From Actinocatenispora thailandica (GTDB taxonomy: Bacteria > Actinomycetota > Actinomycetes > Mycobacteriales > Micromonosporaceae), in assembly GCF_016865425.1 (NCBI RefSeq), contig NZ_AP023355.1:1486198-1550197 (forward strand): DNA of 64,000 bases. The letters run 5' to 3'. A program made the position numbers and the translations under genes. The stretch's first letter is position 1, and each line of letters starts with the position of its first letter. The notes under the pieces were generated by a model. The model was not told the DNA's origin, did not search any database, and saw nothing but the letters and a program-made list of their open reading frames with translations. Positions 20,398 to 50,907 of this stretch are shown one piece after another.

Positions 20398-20452
20398 GTG
20401 TTTCACCTCGGCAAGCACAATCACGTCCGCAGCCATCTATTCTAGGTTGGTG
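20398..20452. promoter_or_regulatory. divergent start region between methyltransferase and SDR genes
   Basis: Only 55 bp separate the two divergent starts. A TAGAAT hexamer on the minus strand (20444-20439) fits an actinobacterial -10 box for the methyltransferase gene. No clear -35 is visible, so this is a weak candidate. Confidence 0.3.
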
Positions 20453-21889: not shown

Positions 21890-21935
21890 TCGAGCTGCCG
21901 CCCGGTGCGCGGAGCGACCCGGGGGCGCGGCTACG

Positions 21936-30900: not shown

Positions 30901-32480
30901 TGGTGCTCGACGCCCTGCCGACCACGCGGACCGGCAAGGTCGATCGACAGGGGCTGCGCCACTTCGAGGTGCAGCCATCCCAGACGGGACGGGCGCCGGC
31001 AACACCGACCGAGCGGGTGATCGCGCCGGTATGGGCTGAGGTGCTCGGTTTGGCTTCCGTTGGCGCCGACGACAACTTCTTCGACCTGGGCGGCCACTCG
31101 CTCCTGATAACCCGGCTGGCGGCCCGACTGACGGCGGCGTTGGGCCGCGACGTCACCACTCACCTGGTCTTCCACCATCCGAGCGTCGCTCAACTGGCAG
31201 CCGCGCTCGACCGAACCGCAGTGGCGAACGTGCCGGCCGTCGCCGGTGCTCCGCCCATTCGCATCGGCGCGGAGCGGCGGTCCCAGGCCCCGTCCCTACC
31301 GCGCTTTCCGGCAACGGACCTCGTGCGGATGCAACCTGACCGCGCCGACCTCGCAATCGAGGAGGGCCGCGCGCCGGCTCTGGATGCAGCGGCCCTGACC
31401 TACCTCCCTGACTCGTGGATAGCGGCGGGAGTCCTGCGTGACCGGTGCGGCGTCGAATTGCATGACTCCGGGGCTACCCTCGGCAATGTCATAACCACGC
31501 CGGCGGGCCGCATCGGCGTCCTGATCCTGCCATGTAGTGGGAGTCAGCTCTTCATCGACGAGACGGCGGCCGTCGACATGCTCGAATCTGCTATGCGACG
31601 GGCCGACCGGTTGGGCGCTCGTGCCGTCTCGCTGACCGGCCTGCTGCCGTCGGCCAGCCGGTACGGTGCCGCGCTCGCCGAGCGGATGCAGGGCTCATCG
31701 CCGGTCACAATCACCACCGGTCATCCGGTCACCGCCTGCGCCGTCGTGCACACCGTTACCGAGGCCCTGGGTCGAACGGCCCGATCGCTGGAGGACGAAC
31801 GCCTCTGTGCACTCGGTCTCGGCTCGATCGGTACGTCGAGCCTGCGACTGCTGCTCGCGACGCAGCCACACCCGGAGTCGATCATGCTTTGCGATCTGTA
31901 CGGCAAGTACAGCCAGCTGACCGAGTTCGCTGACGAGCTTCGCGAGTGCTTCGACTATCGGGGCGCTCTGCAGCTGTTGCCTTCGGGTGGCATGCTGCCG
32001 GACGAGGCATACGCCGCGACGACCATCATCGGCGCGACGAGCATGCCCGACGTCATCGAGGTGTCCAAGGTGAGACCCGCAACGATCGTGGTTGACGACT
32101 CGTACCCCCACTGCTTCGACGTCGAGGCCGCCAACCAGCGCATGATCGTCGCAGCCGACGCGATGTTCATCGAGGCCGGCATCGTCCGCTCGCCCGTCCC
32201 GCTACCCGAGGATCGATACGTACCGCCGTGGATGTCGAATCTGCCGGGAGTCGAGCACGCGCGCCGCCGCGACCCGAACGAAATCATGGGATGTACGCTC
32301 GCGGCCGGACTGCTAGCCGCCGACACCGGGCTGGCGCCGACCCTGGGTCTACCGGAGCACAAGACCGTGCTCGAGCACTTTGCCGCGCTGGCCGCAGCAG
32401 GCTACGGCGCTGCCCGCCTGCAGTGCGCGGGCGCGCCGGTGCTCAACGGGCTCGTCGAGCGGCTCGGCGCGCGGAGGTAA
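27975..32480 (+). CDS. NRPS C-A(beta-Ala-like)-T with fused acyl-ACP-reductase-like release region
   Basis: The protein has 1501 residues. The C domain has HHVAFDGWS near 183. The A domain has YTSGSTGVPKA near 652, NLYGSSEVGAD near 792 and RTGKVDR near 985. The code is about V-D-A-V-M-S-L-A-D-K. The shifted acidic residue (V235, D236) and the SxADK end match beta-alanine-type codes (VDWVISLADK). The T domain has DLGGHSLL near 1037. The last 370 residues hold GRIGVLILPC, a nucleotide-binding GLGSIG near 1281, GATSMPDVIEVSKVRPATIV, DDSYPHCFDV and EIMGCTLAAG with Cys1440. This order and the cysteine align with cyanobacterial acyl-ACP reductase, so release as an aldehyde is inferred. No TE is present. 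Confidence 0.88.
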   Translation: MEPDGIRADLQRQLSALTPVQRARFEELLASHNAQTDRVDRPLPGMAGEWTPLSYQQERIWYLSQLESDLGQFNVVMALDLHGVLDVSALERALAGLASRHDVLRSAIRVVDGVAMQQATPPARVSLRRIDARGRSGTGATAAVDRVTVEEKHRPFDLGRGALLRACLVTLPDDGYTLVLTVHHVAFDGWSAAVLSRELKEFYGAYASGTEPDLPQLPLRYADFAAWQRQSGEVTADVAYWRGHLDGAPHTVTFPGDRPRPATQTFRGETITFVVPSEVVTSLVELGRSADATLFMVLYAALATLMSRYGAGTDIVIGTPVANRTRPGLDDLIGCFINLLPLRIGVRLDETFRDLLVRARDVCLDAYSHQDLPYERVLRELTLARDQSQSPLFQVMLVLHNAPAHAFGLADLRVGYRDVAGTSAQMDIGIAAVPRDGRLECAVEFSTDLYDRPTVERIVKHWQRLLAEIARDARAVVGDVPLLSADEQRALHEWSAGPAASPDDLDLVGLFHRRVALEPDATALVMDDERWSYLRLSGLVDALAVALDEQGAAAEKVVVLCIPRSPALIAAVLAVLRCGAAFLTVDPALSPQRRVSAVRDSKAHVVLTTAALADRFCGLGAALITVDDVDRPGGPLPPMPALRSEGLAYVIYTSGSTGVPKAVMGTHRSLLNRLRWAWRAYPFDAREVCVQKTAVSFVDAVAEYLVGLLAGVPTVIIDDSTVRRVERFVDRLASAGVTRVVLVPSLLRAMLAIPDLATQLPALRLAMTSGEAIERRLVTELRTRMPAMRLVNLYGSSEVGADVIAWDCVDEAAGPVPIGRPIDGVVVRVVDDRLRLVPPGVVGEVLVGGVALARGYAGRPGLTASRFVPDPWGNGDRLYRTGDRARWRRQGVLEFAGRLDGQVKIRGARIELGEVEAAIHRVPGVTGCAVTARAFDDDTRLVAFVTVERDSKLDGRALREAVRSRLPDLLVPSVFVVLDALPTTRTGKVDRQGLRHFEVQPSQTGRAPATPTERVIAPVWAEVLGLASVGADDNFFDLGGHSLLITRLAARLTAALGRDVTTHLVFHHPSVAQLAAALDRTAVANVPAVAGAPPIRIGAERRSQAPSLPRFPATDLVRMQPDRADLAIEEGRAPALDAAALTYLPDSWIAAGVLRDRCGVELHDSGATLGNVITTPAGRIGVLILPCSGSQLFIDETAAVDMLESAMRRADRLGARAVSLTGLLPSASRYGAALAERMQGSSPVTITTGHPVTACAVVHTVTEALGRTARSLEDERLCALGLGSIGTSSLRLLLATQPHPESIMLCDLYGKYSQLTEFADELRECFDYRGALQLLPSGGMLPDEAYAATTIIGATSMPDVIEVSKVRPATIVVDDSYPHCFDVEAANQRMIVAADAMFIEAGIVRSPVPLPEDRYVPPWMSNLPGVEHARRRDPNEIMGCTLAAGLLAADTGLAPTLGLPEHKTVLEHFAALAAAGYGAARLQCAGAPVLNGLVERLGARR

Positions 32481-35949: not shown

Positions 35950-37692
35950 ATGGCAATATCCATTGCTCCGGGAGCTGTCGTCGCCTGGGAAGCCGAATCG
36001 CCCAGTGATAGGCGACTCGGCGTCGTGCTCGGGGAACTGAGCGAGACAGCCAAGTACGTGGTGGCGTCCGCTTCGTGGGGGATCGGCGGAGACCAGACGG
36101 TCAACATACAAGCAGAAGACTTCGTGCGCCGACCCGTGGACGAAGACGACGACTTGCAGATCTCGCATCTGGATACCTCGACGCTCCCCGCCGACAGCCT
36201 GACCGTGGTGGGCCAGATCAGCGGCCCTGCGTTGTCTCGTGCGCTGCGGGCCAGAATCACCGACACGTCGCGGTGGTTCTACGAGACCTACCACCATCCT
36301 CGCCGTACCGAGGCCAACACCTCCGCGGTCCCCTACTCGGGCCGGGTATTCGACCATCGTGAGCTGGAGTTCGCGGTGGAGGCGTCGCTCGACTTCTGGT
36401 TGACGCTCGGCCGGTTCGGCGAACGGCTGCAGCGCGATCTCGCCCGCTACCTCGGCGTGCGCCGAACGGTCCTGGTCAACTCGGGCTCTTCGGCGAACCT
36501 TCTGGCCGTTTCAGCACTCACCTCGAGCCTGCTCGGCGACCGCGCACTGCGGCCGGGCGATGAGGTGATCACCACGGCCTGCGGGTTTCCCACGACGGTC
36601 AATCCAATTCTGCAGAACGATTGCGTGGCGGTGCTGGTGGATACCGATCCGGGATCGGGGAACGTCGACGTCACCCAACTCGAGGCGGCGCTCACGGAGC
36701 GGACCAAGGCGGTGATTCTTGCCCATGCGCTCGGCAACCCCTTCAACATCGACGCGGTGTTGGATTTCTGCCGGCGGCATGAGCTGTGGCTCGTGGAAGA
36801 CACCTGCGACGCGCTCGGTTCAACCTACCGTTCTCCGGCCGGCCCTGCGCTGGTCGGCAGGTTCGGTGACCTTTCCACGTTGTCGTTCTACCCGGCGCAC
36901 CACATCACTATGGGAGAGGGCGGCGCGGTCAATGTGGTGTCGGATCCGATGTTGGTGCGTGCCGTGGAGAGCCTGCGGGACTGGGGGCGGGACTGCTGGT
37001 GTGACTCGGGGCAGGACAACATCTGCGGCAAGCGCTTCTCCTGGCAACTGGGTGACCTACCCCAAGGCTACGACCACAAGTTTGTGTACAGTCACGTCGG
37101 CTACAATCTCAAGCCAACTGACTGGCAGGCGGCGATTGGTTGTGCACAATTCGAGAAGCTACCGGAGTTCAATCGGCTGCGCCGACGCAACTGGGAGCTG
37201 CTTCGGGAGGCTTTCGGCCGCTACGAAGACCTGTTCGAGCTGCCGTACCCGGAGGACGGGTCCGACCCGAGCTGGTTTGGCTTCAAGGTGCTGCCGAGAC
37301 CGGACGCCCCGTTCGGCCGATCCGAGATAGTCGGCTTCTTCGAGTCGCACCGGGTGCAGACCCGGATGATTTTCGGAGGGAACCTGATTCGGCAGCCCGC
37401 ATACTGGGACCGGGTCCGTGCGGACGGCACGCCGGCGGTGCGGACCGTCGGCCAGATGACGGGGGCTGATCGGATCATGAACTCAGGGTTCTTCATCGGG
37501 GTCTACCCGGGCTTGACCGAGGCCCACATCGAGAGGGTCGGAAACGTACTTGACCAGTTCGTCGATGGCCTGTCCGCAGGCGCGGTTGCTATGCCCGGAG
37601 TCGTTGACCTGCGTCGTGCCGCTCGGGATCTGTCGCCGCGACGACAAGCCGTGCGAGACCTGCGCGAGCAGACGGGACCTTCCCGGTTGTGA
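35950..37692 (+). CDS. RfbH-like PLP/PMP 3-dehydratase (DegT family) with N-terminal extension
   Basis: The protein has 580 residues; RfbH/DdhC proteins are about 437. The catalytic part starts near residue 100. It has NSGSSANLLAVSAL, GDEVITTACGFPTTVNPI, LVEDTCDALGS and SFYPAHHITMGEGG. In that last motif a histidine (317 or 318) occupies the place of the PLP lysine, the mark of CDP-6-deoxy-4-ketoglucose-3-dehydratases rather than aminotransferases. GYNLKPTDWQAAIGCAQ and the C-terminal substrate loop also match. C3 deoxygenation of a CDP-ketosugar is expected, needing a reductase partner that is not evident here. The extra N-terminal 95 residues (GAVVAWEAESPSDRRLGVVL) have no function I recognise. 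It ends the cluster. Confidence 0.85.
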   Translation: MAISIAPGAVVAWEAESPSDRRLGVVLGELSETAKYVVASASWGIGGDQTVNIQAEDFVRRPVDEDDDLQISHLDTSTLPADSLTVVGQISGPALSRALRARITDTSRWFYETYHHPRRTEANTSAVPYSGRVFDHRELEFAVEASLDFWLTLGRFGERLQRDLARYLGVRRTVLVNSGSSANLLAVSALTSSLLGDRALRPGDEVITTACGFPTTVNPILQNDCVAVLVDTDPGSGNVDVTQLEAALTERTKAVILAHALGNPFNIDAVLDFCRRHELWLVEDTCDALGSTYRSPAGPALVGRFGDLSTLSFYPAHHITMGEGGAVNVVSDPMLVRAVESLRDWGRDCWCDSGQDNICGKRFSWQLGDLPQGYDHKFVYSHVGYNLKPTDWQAAIGCAQFEKLPEFNRLRRRNWELLREAFGRYEDLFELPYPEDGSDPSWFGFKVLPRPDAPFGRSEIVGFFESHRVQTRMIFGGNLIRQPAYWDRVRADGTPAVRTVGQMTGADRIMNSGFFIGVYPGLTEAHIERVGNVLDQFVDGLSAGAVAMPGVVDLRRAARDLSPRRQAVRDLREQTGPSRL

Positions 37693-38217
37693 TCGGCTCG
37701 GCGGCCGCACCCGTGCGCCAGGCCCACGGCGATCCGGGCCCGACCACCACGCCGTCCGGTCAGCGACAGAGGCGCGGCCACAGCGATGCGAACTTCCGAT
37801 TGGCCAAGCACCCCCGCTATACCCCGCCACACTGTCCGACATCCACTAAGAAGTGCGTGATTGCCGTGGCGGCAGCGATGCGGGCCGATTCGACCCGGTG
37901 CGCACCCTGACGGTGTTTCGCTGCCGCAGCGCCCAGGGCCACACCGAGATGCGCCGTGGATCGCGTAGCGGGAATGGACGTGTCAGCGACTGTGCTCCTG
38001 ATACCTGTTCGCCAGGGTAAAGCAAAATTCTCGTCATCCCCTGATCAGGCTCGCATGCGCCGTGACGTTCTGACTCGGTTATGGTGCCGGCGCGACGTGA
38101 GTACAGCGTCGGAGGATGTGCTCGAGCCTGATATTGCACCGCAGGATCGGTCATCAAGAGATCCCGTCGCTGTGCTCTTCCCTAGACTTGGCCCTATTGA
38201 GACAAAAGTGAAGGAGA
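37693..38217. other. intergenic boundary between NRPS cluster and sulfonate operon
   Basis: About 525 bp without a convincing gene. GC falls visibly along it. AAGGAG at 38211-38216 serves the next gene. A TAGACT hexamer at 38183-38188 could be a -10 element, but no matching -35 is seen. Confidence 0.5.
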
Positions 38218-39033
38218 ATGCAGTTGCAGTCGACTGAGGACGGCCGAACCCGCCCGGGTTTCCTCGTGCTGCCGGAGCGCTCGGCTAAGCCGCGTGTCTC
38301 TGGCATTACACATGTCCTTGACAAGGGCATGCCGATTCTTATGCTCGAATCCTTCTTGGGGCAGATTGCGCAATATGTCGACTACCTGAAGACTGGCTGG
38401 GGGACTGCCTACGTAGACCCATCGATAACCCAGCGCATCGCGCTGTGCTCCCGGCTAGGTATCAAGACGTGTCTGGGCGGCACACTTTTCGAAATCTGCG
38501 CCGCTCAGGGCAGGCTTGTCGAGTTTTGCCGATGGGCTCAGAAGGTTGGACTCTCGACGCTCGAGGTTTCAAATGGCCTACAACTGATGAGCCAGAAGAC
38601 GAAGAGCACATTGATCCGGAACCTCTCGAAGGACTTCTCGGTCCTCGCTGAAACAGGTGCAAAGTCCGCCGACGTGCACGTCGATCCGGCGCAGTGGGCG
38701 GGCGAGATGGAATCGGATCTCGAATCCGGGGCCGAGCTCGTTATCGCGGAGGGCCGCGAGAGTGGCACGGTAGGGCTGTACCAGAAGAACCAAGCTGTGC
38801 GGTCCGACCTGGTCGAGGCGATCAGCGCCCGGATCCCGCTGAACCGGGTCATCCTCGAAGCGCCTCAGAAGGCCCAGCAACTTTGGCTCATCCAGCACTT
38901 CGGTACCGCAGTGAACCTCGGCAACGTGTCGCTCGAGGAAGTCTTGCCTCTGGAGACCTTGCGGCTGGGGCTGAGGGCGGATACCGCCTTGGGAGCGTCC
39001 GTCTCTCCCGAGTGCGGAACCGTTTTGGCATGA
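38218..39033 (+). CDS. comA: phosphosulfolactate synthase (ComA family)
   Basis: The protein has 271 residues from ATG 38218. AAGGAG ends only 1 base before this ATG, so the in-frame TTG at 38224 (7-base spacing) may be the real start. Family motifs are clear: GITHVLDKGMPI, YVDYLKTGWGTAYVD, KTCLGGTLFEICAAQGRL, LSTLEVSNGLQLM and VILEAPQKAQQLWLI. The enzyme adds sulfite to phosphoenolpyruvate giving (2R)-phospho-3-sulfolactate, the first step of coenzyme M synthesis in many methanogens and in the bacterial route. It heads an operon of lyases, a PLP enzyme and a flavoprotein that fit the remaining steps. Confidence 0.92.
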   Translation: MQLQSTEDGRTRPGFLVLPERSAKPRVSGITHVLDKGMPILMLESFLGQIAQYVDYLKTGWGTAYVDPSITQRIALCSRLGIKTCLGGTLFEICAAQGRLVEFCRWAQKVGLSTLEVSNGLQLMSQKTKSTLIRNLSKDFSVLAETGAKSADVHVDPAQWAGEMESDLESGAELVIAEGRESGTVGLYQKNQAVRSDLVEAISARIPLNRVILEAPQKAQQLWLIQHFGTAVNLGNVSLEEVLPLETLRLGLRADTALGASVSPECGTVLA

Positions 39034-39967
39034 CCGGTCAGCATCGGAAGCAAGCGAACGCGACAAGTAGTCCTTATCGAGGCCTATCCATCCAAGAAGT
39101 CGATATTTCTCTCACTGAGACGTCCATCGAATCCTTCCTCATGGGTCGCGAGGTTTATCGGCGCACTGACTATCTTGTGTTGAAGAATGCCGGTTTAGCA
39201 GCGCTGGTACAGATCGACAAGGAGCCTGGGGCGAGCTCTTCCTACGTGTCGGCTCGTGCTCCGTATTGGCTGCGCCCACTGAGCTGCTGTGGATCGAGTC
39301 GCCGACAACGGACGTCGGCAACGCGACGGCGCTTGCGGATGTGGCGGCTACTCATGCACGGCCAGGCATCACCGCATATGTGGTGCACGGCAAGTTCGAG
39401 CATGTGAACTTCATCTTGTGCCCTGCTCCGTTGCGGATCCAGGTCGCCGAGGTAGTTCCGCCATTCCCGCCGAAGCTGCTCGAAATGGCTAAACAAGCGG
39501 TGGCGTTCGACGAGGATCTGCCGCCGATCGAGCTCAAGCTGGACGCGGTGGACCTCTCTGAGCGGGCGACTTTACACCCCGCCCCTGTTCATCTGCTTCC
39601 ATGTCGAGGTAGCCGCGCAAATCTGGATGGTCTCGTGGAGTACCTCGACACTCGTCCCGCGCAACGGAAGGACTGGTTGTTGGTTGGTTGCGAGCGGTCC
39701 GCACAATTTTACCGACACTTTTATGGCGATGAGCCGGTGAAAATCAATATTTGTCCGCGTGACCGCCTCACTGACCCTTCAAGGCTGACCCTTACCAAAT
39801 GCTGTCTACTCGAGCGCGGCGTCGAAATCGGTGATGGCATGGCGGTCGTGCCTTGGGGAGCCAACCTCGATGAGGTACGCAGCGCGCTGCGGCATCTCGC
39901 GGGCCTCCCACAGCCCGCGACCGCGGTCGTGCGCAAGAGGGGGAGTGATGGGAGCTCATCCGGCTGA
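39030..39967 (+). pseudogene. DUF7714-like protein, single frameshift
   Basis: The frame opens at ATG 39030, overlapping the comA stop. It reads SPYRGLSIQEVDISLTETSI and GREVYRRTDYLVLKNAG up to DKEPG near 39228. There the frame shifts: adding one G to the run at 39226-39230 gives EPGGELFLRVG and continues in the second frame with APTELLWIESPTTDVGN, HGKFEHVNFILCP and CERSAQFYRHFYGDEPVKIN to the stop at 39967. The combined protein would have about 312 residues. I recall this domain beside ComA-type genes in actinobacteria; its reaction is unknown to me. Either a recent mutation or a sequencing error in a G run would explain the break. Confidence 0.7.
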
Positions 39968-41324
39968 CTCATTGCTTTATCGGCACCTATGGAGCACCGA
40001 GGAGATTCATCGATACTTTGATGATAAGGGGCGCATAAAGGTCTGGCTGCAGATTCTCAGCGCGTTGGCATCGGCGCAGTCCGAGGTCGGTATCATTCCC
40101 CACGAGGCAGCCGTAGCAATCGCCGCACACGCTGATGTCGAATTGTTTGACCTAGAGGAAGTGGCTTGCGCAACGCGGGCGACTGGCCACTCAACGTTCG
40201 GGCTTATCCGTAGCTTGCGCTGCGTGCTGCCCGAAGAAGCTGCGGAGTGGGTCTACTACGGGGCCACTGTCCAGGACCTCACGGACACGTGGACCGCACT
40301 GACCGCGCGCTATGTGCTTGACATCGTTGACCGTGACCTCGGGCACCTCCTGGACACGATCGCCGGCCTCGCCATTGCTCATCGAGACACGGTAATGTGC
40401 GGGCGGACTCACGGACAGCCCGGTCTGCCAATCACCTTCGGTTTCAAGGCCGCGGTGTGGGCTTCGGAGCTTTCTCGCCACCGGGAACGGCTCCGCGATA
40501 TCCGGCCTCGCATTGAAGTGGTCCAATTGGGCGGCGCTTTGGGGACGATGGAGTTCTGGATGCCAGAATCCGAGCGACTACTGTCCGCGTTCGCCGCGCG
40601 ACTTGGACTCGGAGTGCCGGATATTCCGTGGATAACGGCTAGGGACGGTGTGGCTGAATTTTTGGGGTTTCTGGGTATGATGAGTTCCACATTGGCCAAA
40701 ATTGGTCAAGAGGTATATGAACTTCAACGGCCAGAAATCGGCGAACTGGCCGAGACTTGGACGCCGGGCCAGGTGGGAAGCATAACCATGCCGCACAAGC
40801 GCAATCCAGAGTTGTCCGAGCACCTGGTTACCCTAGCGAAGGTGATCCGCTCCAACGCGGGTCTGGGGCTGGAAGCCATGGTGCACGAACATGAGCGTGA
40901 CGGCCGGTCCTGGAAGACAGAATGGCTTGCCGTCCCTGAGGCCTGTCTGCTCGCCTGCACCGCGCTTGTCCTCTGCTGCCGTCTGGCCGACGGGCTCCAA
41001 GTGAACGCTGATCGGATGAAAGATAATGTCGATGCCTGCGCCGGCTACCTCATGTCTGAGCCGGTGATGCGCGTCCTCTCTGCCAAGATCGGCAAGCACT
41101 CGGCGCACACGCTGATTTACGAGGCCACGATGAATGGCCGCGCAAATGGTTTGAGCATGCGTGACGCGTTGCTCGCCAATCGAGAGGTGCTCACGCATCT
41201 ATCAGTATCGGAGATCGACGCCAGCCTTGACCTCGACGTTGCCGTCGGCGCCGCCGGCATGTTCGTTGACCGGGTCCTCAAGACATTGGACACCCCGAGG
41301 AGCAAGAATGGCGGCGCAAGGTGA
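39948..41324 (+). CDS. aspartase/fumarase-superfamily lyase, adenylosuccinate-lyase-like
   Basis: The protein has 458 residues. The ATG at 39948 is chosen over upstream in-frame codons that overlap the previous gene too far. Superfamily signature GSITMPHKRNP lies near residue 285, with GRTHGQPGLPITFG near 155 and GATVQDLTDT near 105. These give the three conserved regions of the tetrameric lyases. Purine or arginine genes are absent nearby, and the operon starts with ComA. In the bacterial coenzyme M route a member of this superfamily eliminates phosphate from phosphosulfolactate to give sulfoacrylate; that is the favoured role. It overlaps the next gene. Confidence 0.85.
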   Translation: MGAHPADSLLYRHLWSTEEIHRYFDDKGRIKVWLQILSALASAQSEVGIIPHEAAVAIAAHADVELFDLEEVACATRATGHSTFGLIRSLRCVLPEEAAEWVYYGATVQDLTDTWTALTARYVLDIVDRDLGHLLDTIAGLAIAHRDTVMCGRTHGQPGLPITFGFKAAVWASELSRHRERLRDIRPRIEVVQLGGALGTMEFWMPESERLLSAFAARLGLGVPDIPWITARDGVAEFLGFLGMMSSTLAKIGQEVYELQRPEIGELAETWTPGQVGSITMPHKRNPELSEHLVTLAKVIRSNAGLGLEAMVHEHERDGRSWKTEWLAVPEACLLACTALVLCCRLADGLQVNADRMKDNVDACAGYLMSEPVMRVLSAKIGKHSAHTLIYEATMNGRANGLSMRDALLANREVLTHLSVSEIDASLDLDVAVGAAGMFVDRVLKTLDTPRSKNGGAR

Positions 41325-42301
41325 TGGCGGCGAATGCGCTACGGCGCGTTGAGCTGATCGATGGGCCCACTCCGCTGCAACGCGTACCGCAGCTGTCCAA
41401 TAGGATCGGCGTCGACATATGGTTGAAGAGGGATGATCTCACTGGGACCGGGCTGGGGGGTAACAAGATCAGGGCACTGGAATTCCTGATTGGGGATGCG
41501 CTGGCACGCGACGCGGATTGCCTGATTACTGGAGGGGGACCGCAATCGAACTGGGCGATGCTGGCGGCGCTGGTGGCTCGTCGGTATGGCCTCGATCCAT
41601 ATCTCGTCTACTATGGACTGCCCAGGCGTCCGTCCGGCAATCATGCCTTGGCCGAGCTTGCGGGTGCGGACATCCGCTTTACCGGCAACTTCGAACGTGC
41701 GTCGGTCGATTCGGCGCTTGAGGTGCTGACGGCGCAGCTCAGAGCTGAGGGGCGTCGCCCGTACAACCTGCCACGCGGTGGGGCGACAGCTCTTGGCGCA
41801 GTCGGCTACGCCAAAGCCAATAGCGAACTGGCGGACCAGTTTCGGGAGCGTGACCTTACGCCACAATTCGTCTGGCTCGCCACTGGCTCATGCGGGACGC
41901 AGGCGGGCCTCCTCGCTGGTGCACGATGCTTGGCCGCCACTTATGGGGTGGTCGGGGTCACCGTAAGTCGACCTGCAGCGGAGTGCGCGCACCGGGTGGC
42001 CGTGCTGACCGACGAGGTCACGCAACTGGGATTCCCAGCAAGCCACGGCAAAGACCTTGACGATGTCGTAATCATCGACGGCTATATCGGCCCTGGATAC
42101 GGTCGTGCGTCCGAGGCGGGAGAGCAGGCGACCCGCATCGTAGCCCAGACCACGGGTGTGTTTCTCGACCCTGTGTTTGGCGCCAAGGCCATGGCCGCCC
42201 TGATCGATGCGGCAAGGCGAGGTTCTATCGACGGTCCGGTGGTGTTCTTGGTCACGGGCGGGGCACCAACGTTGTTCGACACATCGGAAGGTCAGATATG
42301 A
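41324..42301 (+). CDS. PLP-dependent enzyme, D-cysteine desulfhydrase/ACC deaminase family
   Basis: The protein has 325 residues from ATG 41324, overlapping the preceding TGA; GTG 41321 is also possible. The PLP lysine lies in GLGGNKIRALEFLIGDA near 49, and the ITGGGPQSNWAML serine/asparagine loop near 70 binds the cofactor and carboxylate. ATGSCGTQAGLLAG near 189 is the phosphate-binding loop, and FLVTGGAPTLF closes the protein. Family members cleave or exchange the beta substituent of cysteine-like substrates. In this operon it fits a thiolation step that moves sulfur from cysteine to the sulfonate. It overlaps the next gene by ATGA. Confidence 0.88.
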   Translation: MAANALRRVELIDGPTPLQRVPQLSNRIGVDIWLKRDDLTGTGLGGNKIRALEFLIGDALARDADCLITGGGPQSNWAMLAALVARRYGLDPYLVYYGLPRRPSGNHALAELAGADIRFTGNFERASVDSALEVLTAQLRAEGRRPYNLPRGGATALGAVGYAKANSELADQFRERDLTPQFVWLATGSCGTQAGLLAGARCLAATYGVVGVTVSRPAAECAHRVAVLTDEVTQLGFPASHGKDLDDVVIIDGYIGPGYGRASEAGEQATRIVAQTTGVFLDPVFGAKAMAALIDAARRGSIDGPVVFLVTGGAPTLFDTSEGQI

Positions 42302-43833
42302 CGACTCCGTTTCCAGCAGGATACTTAGGATCCGAAGCGCGGATCACCAGCGGTCCGGCGCGGACCATGGTTGAGTCTGGATACCGCACGGAGATCGCGG
42401 ATGCGGAACTGCTCCACCACGGACTTGGCATGGCCGACCTCGTCCATCTCCGCGCCCTTCATGAGGCGGGAGTCGTGCCAGACGAAGCCGCGGCGGCCTT
42501 GGCTGAGCAATTACTCCAGATCACCTCCCAACCGGCTTCGGAATTCCCCTACGACCCCTTATATGGCGATGCGTACAACAGCCGAGAGCGAGAACTCGAG
42601 CGACGGCTCGGTGCGGGCGCCGGCTGGCTGCACACCAGTCGGACGCGGCGGGAAGCCGGCCGGATCGCCTTTCGCCTCGCGGTGCGCGACCGCCTGCTTG
42701 ATCTTCACGAGGCCGTGTCTGGATTCGCTGAGGTCTTGAGTGGGCGCGCGAGTGAACAGGCGGAGACCGTCTGGGCGGACAACACCTACCTGCAGCCTGC
42801 GCAGCCGTCTACTTTTGGACACTACCTGGGCGGCTTTGGCGAGGAGTGCGTCCGGCACCTCACGCGGCTCGAGAACGCCTTCGCCCTGATCGACCGCTCG
42901 CCGGCCGGGGCCGGCGGCGTCGGCGGCACCAGGCTCGCCCTCGATCGCGACATCCTCGCCGAACGGCTCGGTTTCGCCGTGCCCGCGGCACACACCCGAG
43001 ACGCGATGTGGGCAATTGACGAATTCATCGAGGTGGCTTTCGCGGCGCTCTGTGCCGTGATCACGGCAGATCGCCTCGCCGAGGACCTGGAGATCTTTAC
43101 GAGTCCTGGTTTCGGCTATGTCGGGCTGGACGCTTCGCTCTGCCGGGCGTCCGTCCTTATGCCTCAGAAACGGAATCCTTACGCCCTCGCCGTCATTCGG
43201 GCTTCGGCGAACACCATGGTCGGCATGCTCACCGGCCTTGTGGCGACGGCCCGTACACCGTCCGCCCGCACCGACAATTGGCTGAATACCTACGGTCAGG
43301 TCGCACAGATTCTTGACACAGCCAACCGGGTAGTCGAGCTTGCCTCCGAAGTCGTGCGGACCTTGCAGATCGACGAGGAGGCGCTGACTCTCGCCGCAGG
43401 GACTAAATTCACAGGCGCTGCAGACCTTGCCGAAGAGCTAGTCCTCAGAAACGGAGTGGACTATCGATCTGCCTATCGAATTGTCGGTCGCGCCGTAGCT
43501 TGCGCGATAGATGAGGACCGCGCGACGATGAGCGAGCTTGACGTCGAGAACGCTGCTGAGCTGATTCTGCGCCGACGGCTTGGGATAGATGCAACCATCC
43601 TTCGTGATGCGCTTGATCCAAGCCACATTGTGGCTACTCGGACCGTTGTCGGAGGCAGTGCGCCGGGACAAGTGAAGGATCATGCATGCGCTCTGCTGGA
43701 GCGGGTGCGGAATGCAAGCGGCTGGCGCGATGACCGGCGTGAGCATATCGCGAGTGTGGAAGAGGAGATAGTTGATGCTGCCGTTGGCCTCACTCGGATC
43801 CGAGCTGGCCACGGAGGCAATGCGCAGCAATGA
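42298..43833 (+). CDS. aspartase/fumarase-superfamily lyase, argininosuccinate-lyase-like
   Basis: The protein has 511 residues, starting in an ATGA overlap. The signature SVLMPQKRNP lies near residue 286, with HTSRTRREAGRIAFR near 107 and YLQPAQPSTFGHYL near 165, which correspond to the conserved regions of argininosuccinate lyase. It is longer than ordinary argininosuccinate lyases by a C-terminal tail of about 50 residues. No arg genes are nearby. Together with the other lyase it suggests two eliminations, one possibly decarboxylative, or a lyase releasing the thiol from a cysteine adduct. The exact step is not resolved. Confidence 0.83.
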   Translation: MTTPFPAGYLGSEARITSGPARTMVESGYRTEIADAELLHHGLGMADLVHLRALHEAGVVPDEAAAALAEQLLQITSQPASEFPYDPLYGDAYNSRERELERRLGAGAGWLHTSRTRREAGRIAFRLAVRDRLLDLHEAVSGFAEVLSGRASEQAETVWADNTYLQPAQPSTFGHYLGGFGEECVRHLTRLENAFALIDRSPAGAGGVGGTRLALDRDILAERLGFAVPAAHTRDAMWAIDEFIEVAFAALCAVITADRLAEDLEIFTSPGFGYVGLDASLCRASVLMPQKRNPYALAVIRASANTMVGMLTGLVATARTPSARTDNWLNTYGQVAQILDTANRVVELASEVVRTLQIDEEALTLAAGTKFTGAADLAEELVLRNGVDYRSAYRIVGRAVACAIDEDRATMSELDVENAAELILRRRLGIDATILRDALDPSHIVATRTVVGGSAPGQVKDHACALLERVRNASGWRDDRREHIASVEEEIVDAAVGLTRIRAGHGGNAQQ

Positions 43834-43910
43834 GGACAGCCCCTCTACAGTGCCCAGAAGTAGCTCACTTGACTGGCTGTGTTTGCCCAACCGCATAACA
43901 AAGGAGCCCT

Positions 43911-44813
43911 GTGAACGACCGTATACCCTACGACGTTGTCATCGTCGGGGCGGGAGCCGCCGGTTTATCCGCCGCCGTGCTGTTGGCGCGAACGAAACAC
44001 CGCATCTTGATTATCTCACTGACCGCTCGGCGCAACTCCACCGCGGAGGTCATCAACAATGTTCCGTATGCGCACGGAACTCGGCCTACAGACGTATTCG
44101 CAAAGATGGAGGCTGACGCCAAACATTACGGTGCCGCCTTCGTATGGGACGCGGTAGACACTGCCCGTGCCAGCGCAGACAGCATCGAACTGGTGACCCG
44201 GGGGGGCGCCAGTTACATCGGCCGGCGCCTGCTCCTCGCCGCCGGTACCGTGAATGAGATGCCATCCTGGGTACCGATGGAAGCGTGGGGAAAAGCGGTG
44301 TTTGACTGCCCGTACTGCCATACTTATGAGCACGACGGCGCTGCTTTCGTATCCGTAGGGACTGGTGAGGAAGCCCTCAAGCACGCGCTCCTGTGCCAGC
44401 AGTACACCAAGGATCTCACGACTCTGGTATCCGACCCCGACGCCGCTCAACATGAATTCGCTGATCGGCTTCGGATGATCGGTTCTAGGGTGTTCGTCGA
44501 CAGTGTCACGTCGGCCACCGTACTCGACTCGGGGAAGCTGCGCCTCCTGACAGCTAAAGGCAGAGAGTTGATAGCCGGGACCGTCGTACTGGACTTCATA
44601 ATCCGACCGAATCAGCTTCTGCCGAGGCAGCTCGGACTTGAGTTGAGCCCAAACGGATATCCACGCGCAACGCCCTTCGGTAAAACCTCCCATCCGCGAG
44701 TCTACAGTGCCGGAAATAACCCTGGCTCGCCGTATTTCATGTGGACGGGCGCGGCCTGCAGTGGAATCAATGCTGCGCGGCAGATCTGTGAGGATATCGC
44801 GTTCGGCGACTGA
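43911..44813 (+). CDS. thioredoxin-reductase-like FAD protein with CPYC motif
   Basis: The protein has 300 residues. The GTG at 43911 has AAGGAG 5 bases upstream. The FAD motif VIVGAGAAGLSAAVLLA is near residue 10. The redox disulfide is FDCPYCHTYEHDG near 136, the CxxC form of both thioredoxin reductases and the dithiol oxidases GliT, HlmI and DepH. VYSAGNNPGSPYFMWTGAACSGINAA closes the FAD fold. The central NADPH-binding part lacks a clean GxGxxG (SVGTGEEALKHALL), which favours an oxidase-type relative. It could reduce a disulfide intermediate to a free thiol or oxidise the thiol product before export. Confidence 0.85.
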   Translation: MNDRIPYDVVIVGAGAAGLSAAVLLARTKHRILIISLTARRNSTAEVINNVPYAHGTRPTDVFAKMEADAKHYGAAFVWDAVDTARASADSIELVTRGGASYIGRRLLLAAGTVNEMPSWVPMEAWGKAVFDCPYCHTYEHDGAAFVSVGTGEEALKHALLCQQYTKDLTTLVSDPDAAQHEFADRLRMIGSRVFVDSVTSATVLDSGKLRLLTAKGRELIAGTVVLDFIIRPNQLLPRQLGLELSPNGYPRATPFGKTSHPRVYSAGNNPGSPYFMWTGAACSGINAARQICEDIAFGD

Positions 44814-44897
44814 TATACGCCGGCTGCTGGATCGATTGATTCGCAGTACCTCGAGAATGGATGGATTTTGGGCGCACGACAACCTCGGCTGGCGGGC

Positions 44898-46730
44898 ATG
44901 ACGAGGCGTCTGTGGCTCTCCATGCGCCTTATCGCCGTGGCGCGTAAGGCAGGCTGGGGCTGGTTCATCGCGCTATGGATTGTCAACCTCGCTCGCATGG
45001 TGTTGCCAACAATCGTCGGATTAGCGATGGGCCTGCTCGTCTCGAGGCTGTTGGCCGATGGCGAAGAGCTGGCGACAGTCTCGGCACTGGTGTCCGCCGC
45101 GTGTGGCTTAATGTTGCTGGCGCACACCACTGAGACTGTCGGTGCGGCGCTCACGTTCAGCGTTTCTCAACGACTAGACGGTTGGCACCAGCATCGCATC
45201 TCACGGCTGGTCGGCGGCCCGCAAGGAATCGGACATCTCGAGGATCCCGCGGTCAGGAACGATCTCGAAGAGGCACTGCTGAAGGGCCTGCCCGGGTGGG
45301 CCTCATACAGCTTCGGCACGGGTGCGACCGGCCAGATCGCCATCAGCGCGCGGACCGTGGGCTCGTGCTTCGCCGCCTTGGTGCTCGGGCGTTTCTCCTG
45401 GCCGCTTGCGATCGGACTACTCGCAGTGACGTTCGTGGTACGAATGTGTGTGCGTCGCGAATGGCTCGGACAGCATGGCGTCGTAAGAAAATTGACGCCG
45501 GTGACACGAAAGGCGCATCGTTGGGCAGATGTGGTCGCCTCGCCCTGGGCGGCCAAGGAATCCCGCATCTTCGGCCTGGGCGACTGGGCGATAGGACGAC
45601 ATCAGCGGCTCATGAGTGGCCGAGTGCTTCATCTGGCGGCGATTCGAGCGCGCGTCCTGCGCAAGACGGCATTCCTGGTCGTTCCGCTTGGCGTGGCGGT
45701 CCTGGCCGGTCTCGGCACCTTGGTGTGGGCCGCGGCCGCCGCGAAGATCACGCCGGGCTCGTTAGCGATCTATCTTGGAGCGTTCTGGGGTGTCGTGGCT
45801 GCAAACGGCATGGATTACGAGGCATTCGACGTTCACTTCGCTGGCCTGCCGACGCTACTGGCCCTCGATCATTTACAATCACGGCTTTCATCGAGCTCGG
45901 AGAGCTCCCTGCACCCGTACCAGGGGTCGACAGCGCCGCCGGTAGTTCGATTTTCCGCGATCAAATTCCACTACCCCGGTGCGAGCCGTCCGGTCCTGGA
46001 CGGATTCGATCTGGAGATCGCAAGCGGAGAGAAGCTCGCAATTGTCGGAATGAACGGCGCCGGCAAGTCAACGATGTTGAAATTGTTGTCCGGCATGTAC
46101 CGTCCGTCGGCTGGCCAGCTCACGATCGATGGCAGGAGCCTCGACGACTATGGTGCGCGCGCCTGGCAGAAGCGCCTGGCAGTCGTCCTGCAAAATTTCG
46201 TACATTACGACCTTTCGCTGCGCGAGAACATTGTGCTTGGTGCTTCACAAGAGTCTGCGCATCCCGGACTGCTCGACATTGTGGCGCGGCAGGCTGGCAT
46301 CGAAGACCTTCTTGGCAGGATGCAACTCGGATGGGATACGCCCTTGTCTGCTCGCTACCAAGGCGGCGTGGAACTTTCGGGAGGGCAATGGCAGCGCATA
46401 GCGCTGGCTCGTGCGCTTTATGCGGTGGCGCGGGGAGCGCAGCTGCTCGTGCTGGACGAGCCGACCGCACACCTTGACGTCCGAGCGGAGTTGGATGTGT
46501 TCTCACGTGTTCTCGACGCGGCCGAGGGGGCAAGCGTCGTATTGATCTCACATCGGCTCTCGTCGGTGCGCAAAGCCGACCGAATCGTTCTCATCGACGA
46601 TGGCAGGGTAGTCGAGGACGGCGGACACGACCAGCTCGTTGCCTTGGGCGGACGGTATGCGAAAATGTTCGCTCTCCAGGCTGACCGGTTCGGCGATCAT
46701 CCTGCTCATGGAGGGGGTGATGCGACATGA
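44898..46730 (+). CDS. ABC half-exporter (TM domain plus ATPase)
   Basis: The protein has 610 residues from ATG 44898; a TTG at 44868 would add ten residues. About six hydrophobic segments fill the first 330 residues. The ATPase has Walker A VGMNGAGKS near 387, signature LSGGQ near 495, Walker B LLVLDEPTAHLD near 520 and the switch SHRLS. The fused layout is that of exporters that work as dimers. The next gene encodes a similar protein with an ATGA overlap, so a heterodimer is likely. Probable cargo is the operon product, or cluster metabolite, or a lipid-linked form. Confidence 0.92.
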   Translation: MTRRLWLSMRLIAVARKAGWGWFIALWIVNLARMVLPTIVGLAMGLLVSRLLADGEELATVSALVSAACGLMLLAHTTETVGAALTFSVSQRLDGWHQHRISRLVGGPQGIGHLEDPAVRNDLEEALLKGLPGWASYSFGTGATGQIAISARTVGSCFAALVLGRFSWPLAIGLLAVTFVVRMCVRREWLGQHGVVRKLTPVTRKAHRWADVVASPWAAKESRIFGLGDWAIGRHQRLMSGRVLHLAAIRARVLRKTAFLVVPLGVAVLAGLGTLVWAAAAAKITPGSLAIYLGAFWGVVAANGMDYEAFDVHFAGLPTLLALDHLQSRLSSSSESSLHPYQGSTAPPVVRFSAIKFHYPGASRPVLDGFDLEIASGEKLAIVGMNGAGKSTMLKLLSGMYRPSAGQLTIDGRSLDDYGARAWQKRLAVVLQNFVHYDLSLRENIVLGASQESAHPGLLDIVARQAGIEDLLGRMQLGWDTPLSARYQGGVELSGGQWQRIALARALYAVARGAQLLVLDEPTAHLDVRAELDVFSRVLDAAEGASVVLISHRLSSVRKADRIVLIDDGRVVEDGGHDQLVALGGRYAKMFALQADRFGDHPAHGGGDAT

Positions 46731-48553
46731 GCCGCGCTTCCATACTCTTGTTCCTCTTCCGGACCGCTTGGCGTGCGCGTCGGCGAGCGGTGGTCGGCTA
46801 TGTGCTACTACTGATCATAGAGATTCCTGCGATTGGCTGCCTGGGCCTGGCATTGCGCGCTCTCATCGTGTCGGCCGCACAGCGGGACCTGTCAAGGTCG
46901 CTCCTTGATGCGGCCGCTGCGGCCCTGTGTTGGACGGTCTCTGCCGTGGGCGGCTCGGCACGAACGAACCTGACCTACCTTCTTGCCGAGTCTGTCAGTG
47001 TGCAACTGGACGGACAGATTCTTGGCCTCATCGCACAATGCGGTGACCTGGAGACCTTGGAATCGCCTGAGTTCACCGACAGGGTTGGGATACTGCGGAG
47101 CGGCGGCGATCTGATCGGCCACTACTCGCTGAGTGTTCTCGACGCCGTTGCCACCGTCTTGCGCTTGGCATTTGTTCTGGTGCTGTTGGCCACGGTCCGA
47201 GCCGAACTGCTGCTCCTCGCCCTGATCTTGGCGCCGGTGCTCTGGCTGCAGCGCAGAGAGCGGCAGCAGGTCATCCGCAGCATGGTTGACACGGTTGAGC
47301 AGACGCGCCTCGCTGACCATCTCTTCCGCCTACACACTGATCCTGCGGCAGCCATGGAAATGCGAATTGCGGATTCCGTCAAAACGCTAATCGACCTCGC
47401 GGACGGCATCTGGCGCAACGTCGTGAGGCGGAAGGATCGCGCGCTATGGCGGTCGGTTATCTTCGACGTTGCCTCCTGGTCAATATTCATTGTTTGCTAC
47501 GGCTCCGCACTGATCTCTGTCGTGCGATCGGGCTCTGTCGGTCAAGCCATGGCCGGAAACATGCTGCTGGTCATTACTCTCATTGCGAATCTAAGAAAAC
47601 AGGCGGAGGACACTGTTCACCAGCTGCATCGGACTGCCGAAGGCGCCCACTTCCTGGATGCTTATCTGGCGCTTCGCAACGATGCCGCCTTGCAACTTGC
47701 GGCGTCGTCGCGGCCGATCCCCTCTTCTCTCACGGATGGCATCGCCTTCCACGGAGTCTCGTTTTCCTACCCACGTGGCGCTGCTCCTGTGTTGTCCGAT
47801 CTGAGCATCCGCCTTCCGGCCGGTTCGACCGTGGCGATCGTAGGAGAGCACGGAGCTGGCAAGACTACGCTGATAAAGCTATTGTGTGGTCTGTATACCC
47901 CGTCGTCGGGCCACATTACGGTAGATGGGCTGCGGCTGGACGAAGTCGGCCATAAACAGTGGCAAGGCAGAATCACGGCGAGCTTCCAGGATTTCGCGAA
48001 ATTTGCATGGCAAGTACGTGAGTCGGCTGGCTGTGGCGATCTGACCAGGCTAGCTGATGATGCGAGGATAACGGAGGCTCTAAACGCCGGAGATGCCTTG
48101 GGGTTCGTCGCGAAGCTGCCGCTGGGCCTCGATACCCCTCTGGACGCCTCCCGCGATGGTGTCGAGTTATCAGGTGGACAGTGGCAGCGCATAGCGCTCA
48201 GCCGCGCGTTCATGCGCACTAGTCCCCTCCTGTTCGTACTCGACGAACCGACGGCGTCCCTGGACGCGCACAGCGAGTATGTCGTCTACCGACGACAAAT
48301 GGTCCATGCACGGAACCTAGCAGAAAAGAACGGTGCGATCACCGTGGTAATCTCCCATAGGTTCTCCACTGTACGCATGGCGGATCTCATCCTTGTACTT
48401 GCGAATGGCGCTGTTTCGGAGGCCGGAAGCCACGCCGAGCTGATGGCGCTAAATGGGGTATACGCTCAGTTGTATGAACTGCAAGCTCAGGGTTATGGGC
48501 AGGATCATCCGGCAGCTCCCCCAGAGGGCGCCGGCCGCTCATCGCTCGTTTGA
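46727..48553 (+). CDS. ABC half-exporter (TM domain plus ATPase), second subunit
   Basis: The protein has 608 residues, starting within the stop of the previous gene. Hydrophobic segments lie near residues 22-45, 60-80, 140-170 and 245-290. The ATPase has Walker A VGEHGAGKT near 380, signature LSGGQ near 483, Walker B LFVLDEPTASLD near 507 and switch SHRFS. It is the partner of the preceding half-transporter and the last gene of the sulfonate operon. Its catalytic motifs look intact, so both ATP sites could be active. Confidence 0.92.
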   Translation: MSRASILLFLFRTAWRARRRAVVGYVLLLIIEIPAIGCLGLALRALIVSAAQRDLSRSLLDAAAAALCWTVSAVGGSARTNLTYLLAESVSVQLDGQILGLIAQCGDLETLESPEFTDRVGILRSGGDLIGHYSLSVLDAVATVLRLAFVLVLLATVRAELLLLALILAPVLWLQRRERQQVIRSMVDTVEQTRLADHLFRLHTDPAAAMEMRIADSVKTLIDLADGIWRNVVRRKDRALWRSVIFDVASWSIFIVCYGSALISVVRSGSVGQAMAGNMLLVITLIANLRKQAEDTVHQLHRTAEGAHFLDAYLALRNDAALQLAASSRPIPSSLTDGIAFHGVSFSYPRGAAPVLSDLSIRLPAGSTVAIVGEHGAGKTTLIKLLCGLYTPSSGHITVDGLRLDEVGHKQWQGRITASFQDFAKFAWQVRESAGCGDLTRLADDARITEALNAGDALGFVAKLPLGLDTPLDASRDGVELSGGQWQRIALSRAFMRTSPLLFVLDEPTASLDAHSEYVVYRRQMVHARNLAEKNGAITVVISHRFSTVRMADLILVLANGAVSEAGSHAELMALNGVYAQLYELQAQGYGQDHPAAPPEGAGRSSLV

Positions 48554-49082: not shown

Positions 49083-49640
49083 TTACTCGAGACGCCGGGT
49101 GGTGGGGTGGTTGTCGCAGCGGTTGAGCGGCGTCGCGCTGCTGATGAGCAGACGTAGCACCACGATGGCGGTGGAGAGGTAGAGGTACATGGTCTGGCTG
49201 TACTGTCGGTTGGCCGCAGCTTGCTGAAGCCGTTCATCCACGGGTGCCCGCGTTCGACCACCCAGCGTGTCCGGCCTGGATTGGGGTGGCAGGCCCTCGC
49301 GGACGATCTCGCCGGTGAGGTCGCTTGGCAAGGGCGGTACGAGGGTTTGTCGCCGCCCCGGCCCAGACTGACGTTGACCTGCTCGGGGTAGGTCGCCGAC
49401 GTACTTGTGGGCGGCTCCCAGGGTGGGCACTAGCAGCGGGGAATCGTGGCGGTTAGCTCCGGCAGCCATGACTGTTAGCAGGACACCACGCGCCTCCGCG
49501 AGCACCGAGCGTTTCAGGCCCCGTTTGCCGCGGTCCACCGGAGTGCGCCCGGCGGCTTGCCCGCCACCCTTTGGTGATGCAGCCATCCACGGGCAACTCG
49601 CCCAGTTCCGCGCCGATCATGCTGTCGTAGGTCTGCAGGG
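49083..49640 (-). pseudogene. IS5-family-type DDE transposase remnant
   Basis: Read on the minus strand, GKRGLKRSVLAEARGVLL and AGANRHDSPLLVPTL (about 49530-49430) match the central DDE part. A frame-shifted VVERGHPWMNGFSKLR (about 49260) and the terminal MYLYLSTAIVVLRLLI...PTTRRLE (to 49083) match the C-terminal part. Several frame changes and no recognisable N-terminus show a decayed copy. Confidence 0.65.
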
Positions 49641-49680: not shown

Positions 49681-50907
49681 TCAGAGGCGTATTCCGAGTA
49701 GTGCGTCCACCGCATCCGTTACCAGAGCGGGTGCCGTCACGTCAGTACCGTCGCTGGCCGCCCACCTGTCGACCGCCGCCAAGGCCCCGGGTGTATCCAG
49801 GTCGGCGGACAGCCGCTCCCGCAGCGCGCGTAGTAGCTCCTCCCCGGGCGGCCCGGCTGACCGGCGTACCGCGGCGCGCCACCGCGCCAGTCGCTCCGCT
49901 GCTGCGGCCAGCACCGGCTCGGTCCACGGCCGGTCGGTGCGGTAGTGCCCAGCCAAGAGCCCCAGCCGTACCGCCATCGAGTCCACTCCCACGGCCCGTA
50001 GCCTCGACAGAAGGACCAGGTTGCCCTTGGACTTGGACATCTTCTCGCCGTCCAGTCCAATCATCCCGCAGTGCACGTAGTGCTTCGCGAACGGCCGCTC
50101 GCCGGTGATCGCCTCGATGTGCGCTGCGGAGAAATCATGGTGCGGGAAGATCAGGTCACTGCCGCCACCCTGTACGTCGACCGTGGAACCCAGCCAGCGC
50201 AGCGCGATCGCCGCACACTCGATGTGCCAGCCTGGGCGGCCAGCACCTAGCGGCGAGGGCCAGCTCGGCTGGCCAGCATACTGGCTGTCGCGCCACAGCA
50301 GAGGGTCCAGAGGGTCCCGCTTGCCGGCGCGGTCCGGGTCACCGCCGCATTCCGCGTTCAGCGAAAGCATGGTAGCTCGGTCATACCCGGACTGGTACCC
50401 AAAGTACTTGGCGGCCCGAGTGTCGAAGTAAACATCGTTGGTGTCATCCCCTAGCCGGTACGCCGCGCCCTGCGCGACCAGCCGCTCGACCAGCTCCACC
50501 ACCTCGGGGATGGCCTCGACCGCGCCCAGGTAGTGCTCCGGCGGCAGGATCCGCAGCGTCTCCATGTCGGTGCGGAACAGCGCGATCTCCCGCTCGGCCA
50601 GAGCGGTCCACTCCTCACCGTCCCTCGCCGCGCGCGCCAGCAGCCCATCATCCACGTCGGTCACGTTCTGTACGTACTGCACGACCTGCCCTGTATCGAG
50701 CCATAGTCGATTAATCAGGTCGAACGTGATCATCGTGGCGGCATGTCCCAGATGCGTCGCGTCGTAGGGGGTGATGCCGCACACGTACAGCCGGGGCGGG
50801 GTCGCCGGCTTGCTCGGCCGCACCGTCCGGGTGGCCGTGTCGAACAGGGCAAGGGGCACCGCAGCGCCGGGCAGCCGTGGCACGACGGGCGCCGACCAGG
50901 AATCCAT
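49681..50907 (-). CDS. mshC: cysteine:glucosaminyl-inositol ligase MshC (mycothiol synthesis)
   Basis: The protein has 408 residues, close to the usual 412. MshC is a cysteinyl-tRNA-synthetase relative that joins cysteine to GlcN-Ins using ATP, the third enzymatic step to mycothiol. Visible are the opening [11 protein letters not shown], the HIGH-type site THLGHAAT near 52, the zinc-binding Cys of [10 protein letters not shown] near 43, and KMSKSKGN near 287. It lacks the anticodon-binding C-terminal domain of CysS, which separates the two. It stands alone between insertion-sequence remnants. A single genomic mshC would make it housekeeping; a paralogue would tie it to the nearby thiol chemistry. 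Confidence 0.92.

Follow-up and report, generated by a model that had tools for sequence, protein, structure and literature searches.

A probable coenzyme M operon beside a non-ribosomal peptide–polyketide gene cluster in Actinocatenispora thailandica

To our knowledge, coenzyme M (2-mercaptoethanesulfonate, CoM) is known only from archaea with alkyl-CoM reductases and from bacteria that use alkenes or epoxides. Here we describe what is very probably a bacterial CoM operon (comA, xcbA, xcbD, xcbE and xcbC), of the type found in actinobacterial alkene oxidizers, at positions 38218–43833 of a 64,000 nt stretch of the Actinocatenispora thailandica genome (the window; C1:1486198-1550197). The genome is a single contig (C1) of 7.43 Mb with a completeness of 96.6%, and its mycothiol ligase genes are those expected of an actinomycete, mycothiol being a mark of this group. 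The operon lies between a cluster of non-ribosomal peptide synthetase (NRPS), polyketide synthase (PKS) and glycosyltransferase genes and the genes for a flavoprotein and two halves of an ATP-binding cassette (ABC) exporter (Table 1). The bacterial route to CoM was worked out in Xanthobacter and departs from the archaeal routes after the ComA step (PMC12068725).

The operon on plasmid pNOCA01 of Nocardioides sp. JS614 (NOCA_RS00675-00655) has all five genes, ordered and oriented as in the window, and the window operon matches it and those of Mycolicibacterium chubuense NBB4 at 52–62% identity. The annotated JS614 and NBB4 regions list ComA, a hypothetical protein (XcbA), an adenylosuccinate-lyase-type protein, a pyridoxal phosphate (PLP) enzyme and a lyase, as does that of Methylocystis iwaonis. 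Neighbours of the JS614 operon, in the stretch examined, include genes for a coenzyme A (CoA)-transferase, an SDR protein and a CoA-disulfide-reductase-like protein, and a match (46%) to the epoxyalkane:CoM transferase EtnE, whereas in the window these places are taken by NRPS-PKS genes, exporters and a flavoprotein of the HlmI/DepH kind, and no EtnE was found in the genome. The gene order is also that of the operons of NBB4 (pMYCCH.01, pMYCCH.02) and M. vinylchloridicum, which are among the nearest rows of our four-enzyme tree but, unlike the window's, sit within vinyl chloride/ethene clusters (PMC8727900). Set 1 of Xanthobacter autotrophicus Py2 (Xaut_4872-4875) likewise comprises ComA, argininosuccinate-lyase-type, adenylosuccinate-lyase-type and 1-aminocyclopropane-1-carboxylate-deaminase-type genes, with a split, unannotated XcbA reading ahead of them, but differs from the window in gene order, in its lower identity (34–49%) and in the 2-hydroxypropyl-CoM lyase gene close by.

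Gene content and relationships of the operon

An earlier interpretation of the DNA made without database searches (the sequence-only reading) had proposed that these genes form the bacterial CoM route. Open reading frames and Pfam matches confirmed the genes it named and their order, and its pathway assignment agrees with the gene order, the lyase tree described below and the best NCBIfam matches across the operon (CoM_XcbA_fam, CoM_syn_XcbD, CoM_syn_XcbE and CoM_syn_XcbC). Its list from ComA to the flavoprotein stands as regards the genes present and their order, but it missed that the DUF7714 gene, xcbA, occupies two frames. Neighbouring genes overlap or are spaced by 54–77 bp, and the tightly packed block extends past the CoM genes and both exporter genes, to 48553. 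ComA is 55–57% identical to the JS614 protein and to the two NBB4 copies, the best three matches of a plasmid tblastn search with ComA as query (25 records), and scores 226.8 bits against the archaeal equivalog TIGR03849, below its cut-off of 280. In a 50-row tree, for which the program warned of long branches, one window lyase groups with XcbC and the other with XcbD. A branch of support 99 sets off each of these groups, and the genome's own ArgH, PurB and FumC are separate from them; the candidate explanation that the window lyases are purine or arginine enzymes was therefore rejected, and the tree that the sequence-only reading had named as a possible refutation did not refute it. All four enzymes apart from XcbA are of full length and retain 226 of the 228 columns found to be conserved across 95% or more of the relatives (ComA 39/39, XcbD 82/83, XcbE 39/39, XcbC 66/67).

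Scanning all of GTDB with an alignment of DUF7714 gave 108 relatives, of which 80 were retained as loci. ComA and XcbD are each present in 71 of these, XcbC in 66 and XcbE in 61; 55 loci have all four, among them 32 of the 39 loci of at least 20 kb. The order ComA-XcbA-XcbD-XcbE-XcbC on a single strand recurs in 38 of the 80, which rules out chance. In a concatenated tree of the four enzymes (58 rows; quick search, no bootstrap, long-branch warnings), the window is nested in sets of actinobacterial operons of 7, 9 and 23 rows, with supports of 95, 96 and 99, respectively, in the Shimodaira–Hasegawa-like approximate likelihood ratio test (SH-aLRT). Apart from the window, the 23-row set has 22 rows, and 16 of these are accompanied by an EtnE match, at the locus or in the genome, one of the matches being weak.

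From what is known of these families, ComA would join sulfite and phosphoenolpyruvate (PEP) to give phosphosulfolactate, and XcbC would remove phosphate to give sulfoacrylate. XcbD would then add cysteine, in keeping with the NCBIfam name of its family ('3-sulfopropionylcysteine synthase XcbD'), or another co-substrate, and decarboxylation and C–S cleavage by XcbA and XcbE would yield CoM; the order of steps past sulfoacrylate is a likely one, based on these names and on family knowledge. By gene content the CoM pathway is well supported, yet our confidence that the window operon actually makes CoM is only moderate, because xcbA is split. The tblastn matches of the XcbA family, at 39057–39221 and 39236–39931, lie in different frames, and the frame break falls between 39222 and 39235, within a region that includes a short G run. 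In 84 of the 86 loci examined XcbA gave one continuous match, the two exceptions being the window and Xanthobacter set 1, in both of which the family is present in split frames.

Five cysteines of XcbA/DUF7714 (C190, C219, C240, C256 and C257; XcbA relative at L019:9770-10693) are invariant in 59 sequences, and a structure model of XcbA/DUF7714 is confident, with no clear match in the PDB. DUF7714 was also matched in Methanosarcina acetivorans, one of 14 control genomes. In Xanthobacter Py2 the frame-split, unannotated XcbA reading (L004:9026-9942) lies upstream of xcbB1, and XcbA and ComA each have three places on the plasmid. A conserved hypothetical gene for 308 residues has been described as xcbF1, located between xcbB1 and xcbE1 (PMC8727900), and this is taken to be the gene that NCBIfam now names XcbA.

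A whole-genome search with the Xanthobacter 2-hydroxypropyl-CoM lyase as query found no epoxyalkane:CoM transferase (EaCoMT/EtnE), as the sequence-only reading had guessed; the best match was partial (31% identity, E 2.9e-10) and lies in a MetE-like frame, recognized by eye as methionine synthase. As a positive control, the search was applied to 19 other CoM genomes (L069 being outside this set); eight gave a match at E <= 1e-30, with best E values from 3.9e-33 to 1.4e-201 and the weakest, in L041, at 31% identity. All 11 control genomes without a match are Pseudonocardia, and one Pseudonocardia genome whose operon is nearer the window's (L021) has a match.

On a Legionella lytica plasmid (L006:4640-9511), ComA forms the end of a 970-residue protein, adjoining a 2-phosphosulfolactate phosphatase and an aminotransferase, and no match to XcbA, C, D or E was found within the stretch examined. 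CoM operons of a Pseudonocardia clade (L059:5191-17520, L055:5342-18257) adjoin LarE-LarB-LarC (nickel-pincer nucleotide) genes, LarC being named by NCBIfam and LarE and LarB by eye from Pfam matches, and also OsmC-like, weakly DsrE-like and CoA-disulfide-reductase-like flavoprotein genes. The LarC cluster occurs in 8 of 15 loci of the Pseudonocardia clade, as against none of 14 in the EtnE-type group. The 11 genomes of this kind that were searched gave no EtnE match, and these operons possibly represent a further use of CoM.

The flavoprotein, the exporters and the surrounding island

The gene that follows xcbC encodes a thioredoxin-reductase-like sequence with the features of a flavin adenine dinucleotide (FAD)-binding protein and a CxxC motif. 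Among solved chains its nearest sequences are 4ntd, listed as a thioredoxin reductase and presumably HlmI, and DepH (4nte, 4jn9), with which it shares the motif CPYC. The likeness is remote (about 100 bits), and GliT (4ntc) ranks eighth, after ordinary thioredoxin reductases. HlmI, DepH and GliT, of the holomycin, romidepsin and gliotoxin pathways, respectively, are FAD-dependent dithiol oxidases of natural-product biosynthesis (PMC3826145, PMC5721475). We also considered the CoA-disulfide-reductase-like protein that stands beside CoM operons in 24 of 29 loci compared, but the window flavoprotein belongs to a different family; the best match in the genome to the JS614 member is partial, at 33%. 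Among 354 genomes of the host family searched at E <= 1e-60, only one other (G215) has a relative of the flavoprotein, 48% identical, with two ABC relatives adjoining and ATP-grasp and adenylation genes as neighbours. No close XcbD was found in that genome (best 36%), and the flavoprotein and exporters therefore look like an export or thiol module that is independent of CoM.

Table 1. Features of the window considered in this study
Feature	Position	Strand	Match or content
Group II intron reverse transcriptase	3139-4176	-	
NRPS-PKS-glycosyltransferase cluster	6778-37692		TauD-like, A-T-C, C-A-T, KS-AT-KR-ACP, sugar genes, SpoU/TsnR-like rRNA methylase, MbtH, C-A-T with tail lacking assignment, C-A-T with reductase-like tail, amine oxidase-like, glycosyltransferase, methyltransferases, RfbH-like
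Glucose-1-phosphate cytidylyltransferase-like gene	18658-19521		Below cut-off
Epimerase gene	20396-21499		
RfbH-like 3-dehydratase gene	35950-37692		Above cut-off
comA/xcbB, (R)-phosphosulfolactate synthase (PEP + sulfite)	38218-39033	+	PF02679, 260.5 bits (cut-off 25.2)
xcbA (DUF7714), N-terminal part, first frame	39030-39235	+	PF24830, 29.4 bits (cut-off 25), on piece 39042-39266
xcbA (DUF7714), C-terminal part, second frame	39236-39967	+	NF052538 CoM_XcbA_fam, 305.5 bits (cut-off 150)
xcbD, adenylosuccinate-lyase-type (Lyase_1 + ADSL_C)	39945-41324	+	NF052536, 731.8 bits (cut-off 600)
xcbE, D-cysteine-desulfhydrase-type PLP enzyme (PALP)	41321-42301	+	Best NCBIfam match NF052537 XcbE, 328.8 bits, below cut-off (450)
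xcbC, argininosuccinate-lyase-type (Lyase_1 + ASL_C2), predicted phosphate elimination from phosphosulfolactate	42298-43833	+	Best NCBIfam match NF052535 XcbC, 420.8 bits, below cut-off (575)
Thioredoxin-reductase-like CPYC flavoprotein, HlmI/DepH kind (dithiol oxidase-like; Pyr_redox_2)	43911-44813	+	PDB sequence matches 4ntd (E 3e-28) and DepH 4nte (E 9e-27)
ABC exporter, permease-ATPase half 1	44868-46730	+	PF00005; MsbA-like, below cut-off
ABC exporter, permease-ATPase half 2	46727-48553	+	PF00005; MsbA-like, below cut-off
Weak IS5-like fragment, after exporters	49083-49586	-	
Second mycothiol ligase MshC	49681-50907	-	TIGR03447, 623.9 bits (cut-off 485.1)
Integrase-core transposase	54225-55115	-	
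Mu-type transposase C-terminal gene	57487-58524	-	

The G+C content of third codon positions (GC3) is 0.76–0.83 in the NRPS block (14 genes), 0.68–0.75 in the five CoM-block readings and 0.67–0.70 in the flavoprotein and exporter genes, against a mean of 0.90 and a lowest value of 0.73 for 21 genes from four stretches elsewhere in the genome. With GC3 below that mean, the window cluster looks foreign. Within it, a separate compositional unit is formed by the CoM, flavoprotein and exporter genes. Mobile elements, all on the minus strand, flank the island on both sides. The second MshC is 70% identical to the genome's other copy (C1:3519657), with a GC3 of 0.82 as against 0.92. Such a copy could serve as a resistant target or help to supply thiol, and may or may not be part of the function of the island; it would fit a thiol-based role, yet it has its own composition and strand.

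Within the NRPS cluster, a SpoU-type methylase (21762–22754) is related to the NshR/TsnR 23S rRNA methylases, scoring below their cut-offs, and the product of the cluster may therefore act on the ribosome. The cytidylyltransferase-like, epimerase and RfbH-like genes suggest a sugar of the 3-deoxy or 3,6-dideoxy type. For the C-terminal domain of the last NRPS (31215–32477) the only solved relatives found were 9e4x and 9e4s, listed as 'amino acid adenylation domain protein'; the domain has relatives within large frames (2077–4025 residues) of nine other genomes, and by eye resembles acyl-ACP reductases. The last ~560 residues (26286–27968) of the NRPS at 23109–27968 have no Pfam match and appear by eye to be of glycosyltransferase type. 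A second NRPS cluster follows right after the island, from window position 60509 onward and through L112-L113 (G000:C1:1550100-1589900), with a GC3 of 0.92–0.95; its frames, of 6362 and 5932 residues, are truncated where the examined stretches end. A glyoxalase/4-hydroxyphenylpyruvate-dioxygenase-like gene lies at 60509.

Possible roles of the thiol

The explanation that we consider best, with a probability of roughly 0.55, is that the CoM operon, together with the flavoprotein and exporter genes, has been captured into a mobile specialized-metabolite island and the thiol recruited there. In its favour are the NRPS-PKS genes next to the operon, the HlmI/DepH-like flavoprotein, the exporters, the second MshC, mobile elements on either side, the GC3 values and a host genome in which no EtnE was found. 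CoM could then be a building block, a sulfur donor, or a protective or carrier thiol for an exported product, with the HlmI/DepH-like flavoprotein handling a thiol or disulfide step ahead of export; mycothiol and ergothioneine are carrier or protective thiols in other pathways. A more specific form of the proposal, which we put forward tentatively and regard as doubtful, is that the exported product of the NRPS-PKS-glycoside island carries, or is shuttled or protected by, CoM, that the HlmI/DepH-like enzyme acts in this process and that the second MshC accompanies it. Among the papers listed in literature searches, none reported a comparable combination of CoM genes with an NRPS-PKS cluster.

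A number of observations weigh against recruitment into specialized metabolism. The break in composition between the NRPS and CoM blocks suggests separate histories; the tie between CoM and the NRPS product is therefore unproven and the adjacency possibly accidental. The flavoprotein and exporter set occurs elsewhere (G215) without CoM genes nearby, and on these two grounds the role that the sequence-only reading suggested for CoM, as a component or partner of the NRPS-PKS product, is unproven. No cysteine-activating module was recognized in the NRPS genes, the codes being read by eye, and there is thus no obvious attachment point for a thiol. The frame of xcbA is split, and a search of the genome gave no second copy. 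XcbC and XcbE score under their NCBIfam cut-offs, as do the JS614 and NBB4 homologues: for XcbC the scores are 420.8 bits in the window, 377.7 in JS614, 399.1 in NBB4, 418.6 in Methylocystis and 782.9 in Xanthobacter, and for XcbE 328.8, 314.8, 310.4 and 525.3 in the window, JS614, NBB4 and Xanthobacter, respectively. Among the operons compared, only Xanthobacter passes these two cut-offs, and JS614, whose operon stands beside alkene-type genes, scores below the window for both and for XcbD (695.2 as against 731.8). In favour of recruitment, a survey of neighbouring gene families (E 1e-8) found no homologue of the flavoprotein, the exporter membrane halves or KS in any of the 80 related loci, and one weak NRPS match (25%) and one weak DegT match, although only 39 of the loci reach 20 kb and many others are short contigs, so that dissimilar neighbours farther out would escape notice.

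Two rivals to recruitment are live. The operon may make CoM for a unit that stands by itself, in which the flavoprotein and exporters oxidize and export CoM or its adducts, with no tie to the NRPS-PKS product, the two blocks having become neighbours as cargo of mobile DNA. The compositional difference (GC3 0.67–0.75 as against 0.76–0.83), the 525-bp gap between the blocks (37692-38218) and the IS5-like fragment after the exporters all favour such a unit, but we think it unlikely: an HlmI/DepH-like enzyme with paired exporters is typical of peptide-type clusters, the nearest relative of that set, in G215, stands among ATP-grasp and adenylation genes without CoM genes, and every likely gene selected between 20396 and 48553 has the same orientation. 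Less likely again is that a horizontally acquired CoM operon is losing its function. The split xcbA, the lack of an EtnE match and the mobile elements on either side would accord with decay, and two NRPS frames of ~18–19 kb are unbroken in the assembly, which disfavours a generally poor assembly. Set against decay are the other four enzymes, full length with almost all conserved columns kept, the position of the break beside a short G run, a type of site prone to sequencing slips, and the split xcbA of Xanthobacter Py2 set 1, although the plasmid of that strain has further XcbA places.

It is also conceivable, but improbable, that a different thiol-sulfonate is the wanted product and that, in the absence of a working XcbA, the route halts or takes another course, a carboxylated cysteine adduct being one such point. 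XcbA is indeed the sole broken part of an operon type in which it is nearly always unbroken, yet with only a putative role for XcbA the consequence of losing it is not predictable, and a sequencing error in xcbA would void the argument. Alkene or epoxide catabolism with a CoM transferase encoded elsewhere in the genome is close to refuted. The nearest relatives of the operon do serve or accompany such pathways, but the best that the whole genome offers is the partial MetE-like match, weaker by E value than the matches in the eight positive controls, in a single-contig assembly of high completeness, and we have rejected a catabolic use of CoM in this host.

If recruitment into specialized metabolism is correct, the window would hold CoM use of another kind, with the operon in an antibiotic-type island and no CoM transferase found in the host genome. 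Sulfonated or CoM-conjugated natural products would then become a target, to be traced by their sulfonate signature. More generally, the 11 Pseudonocardia genomes that have CoM operons but no transferase match indicate that the use of CoM in actinomycetes may extend beyond alkene oxidation.

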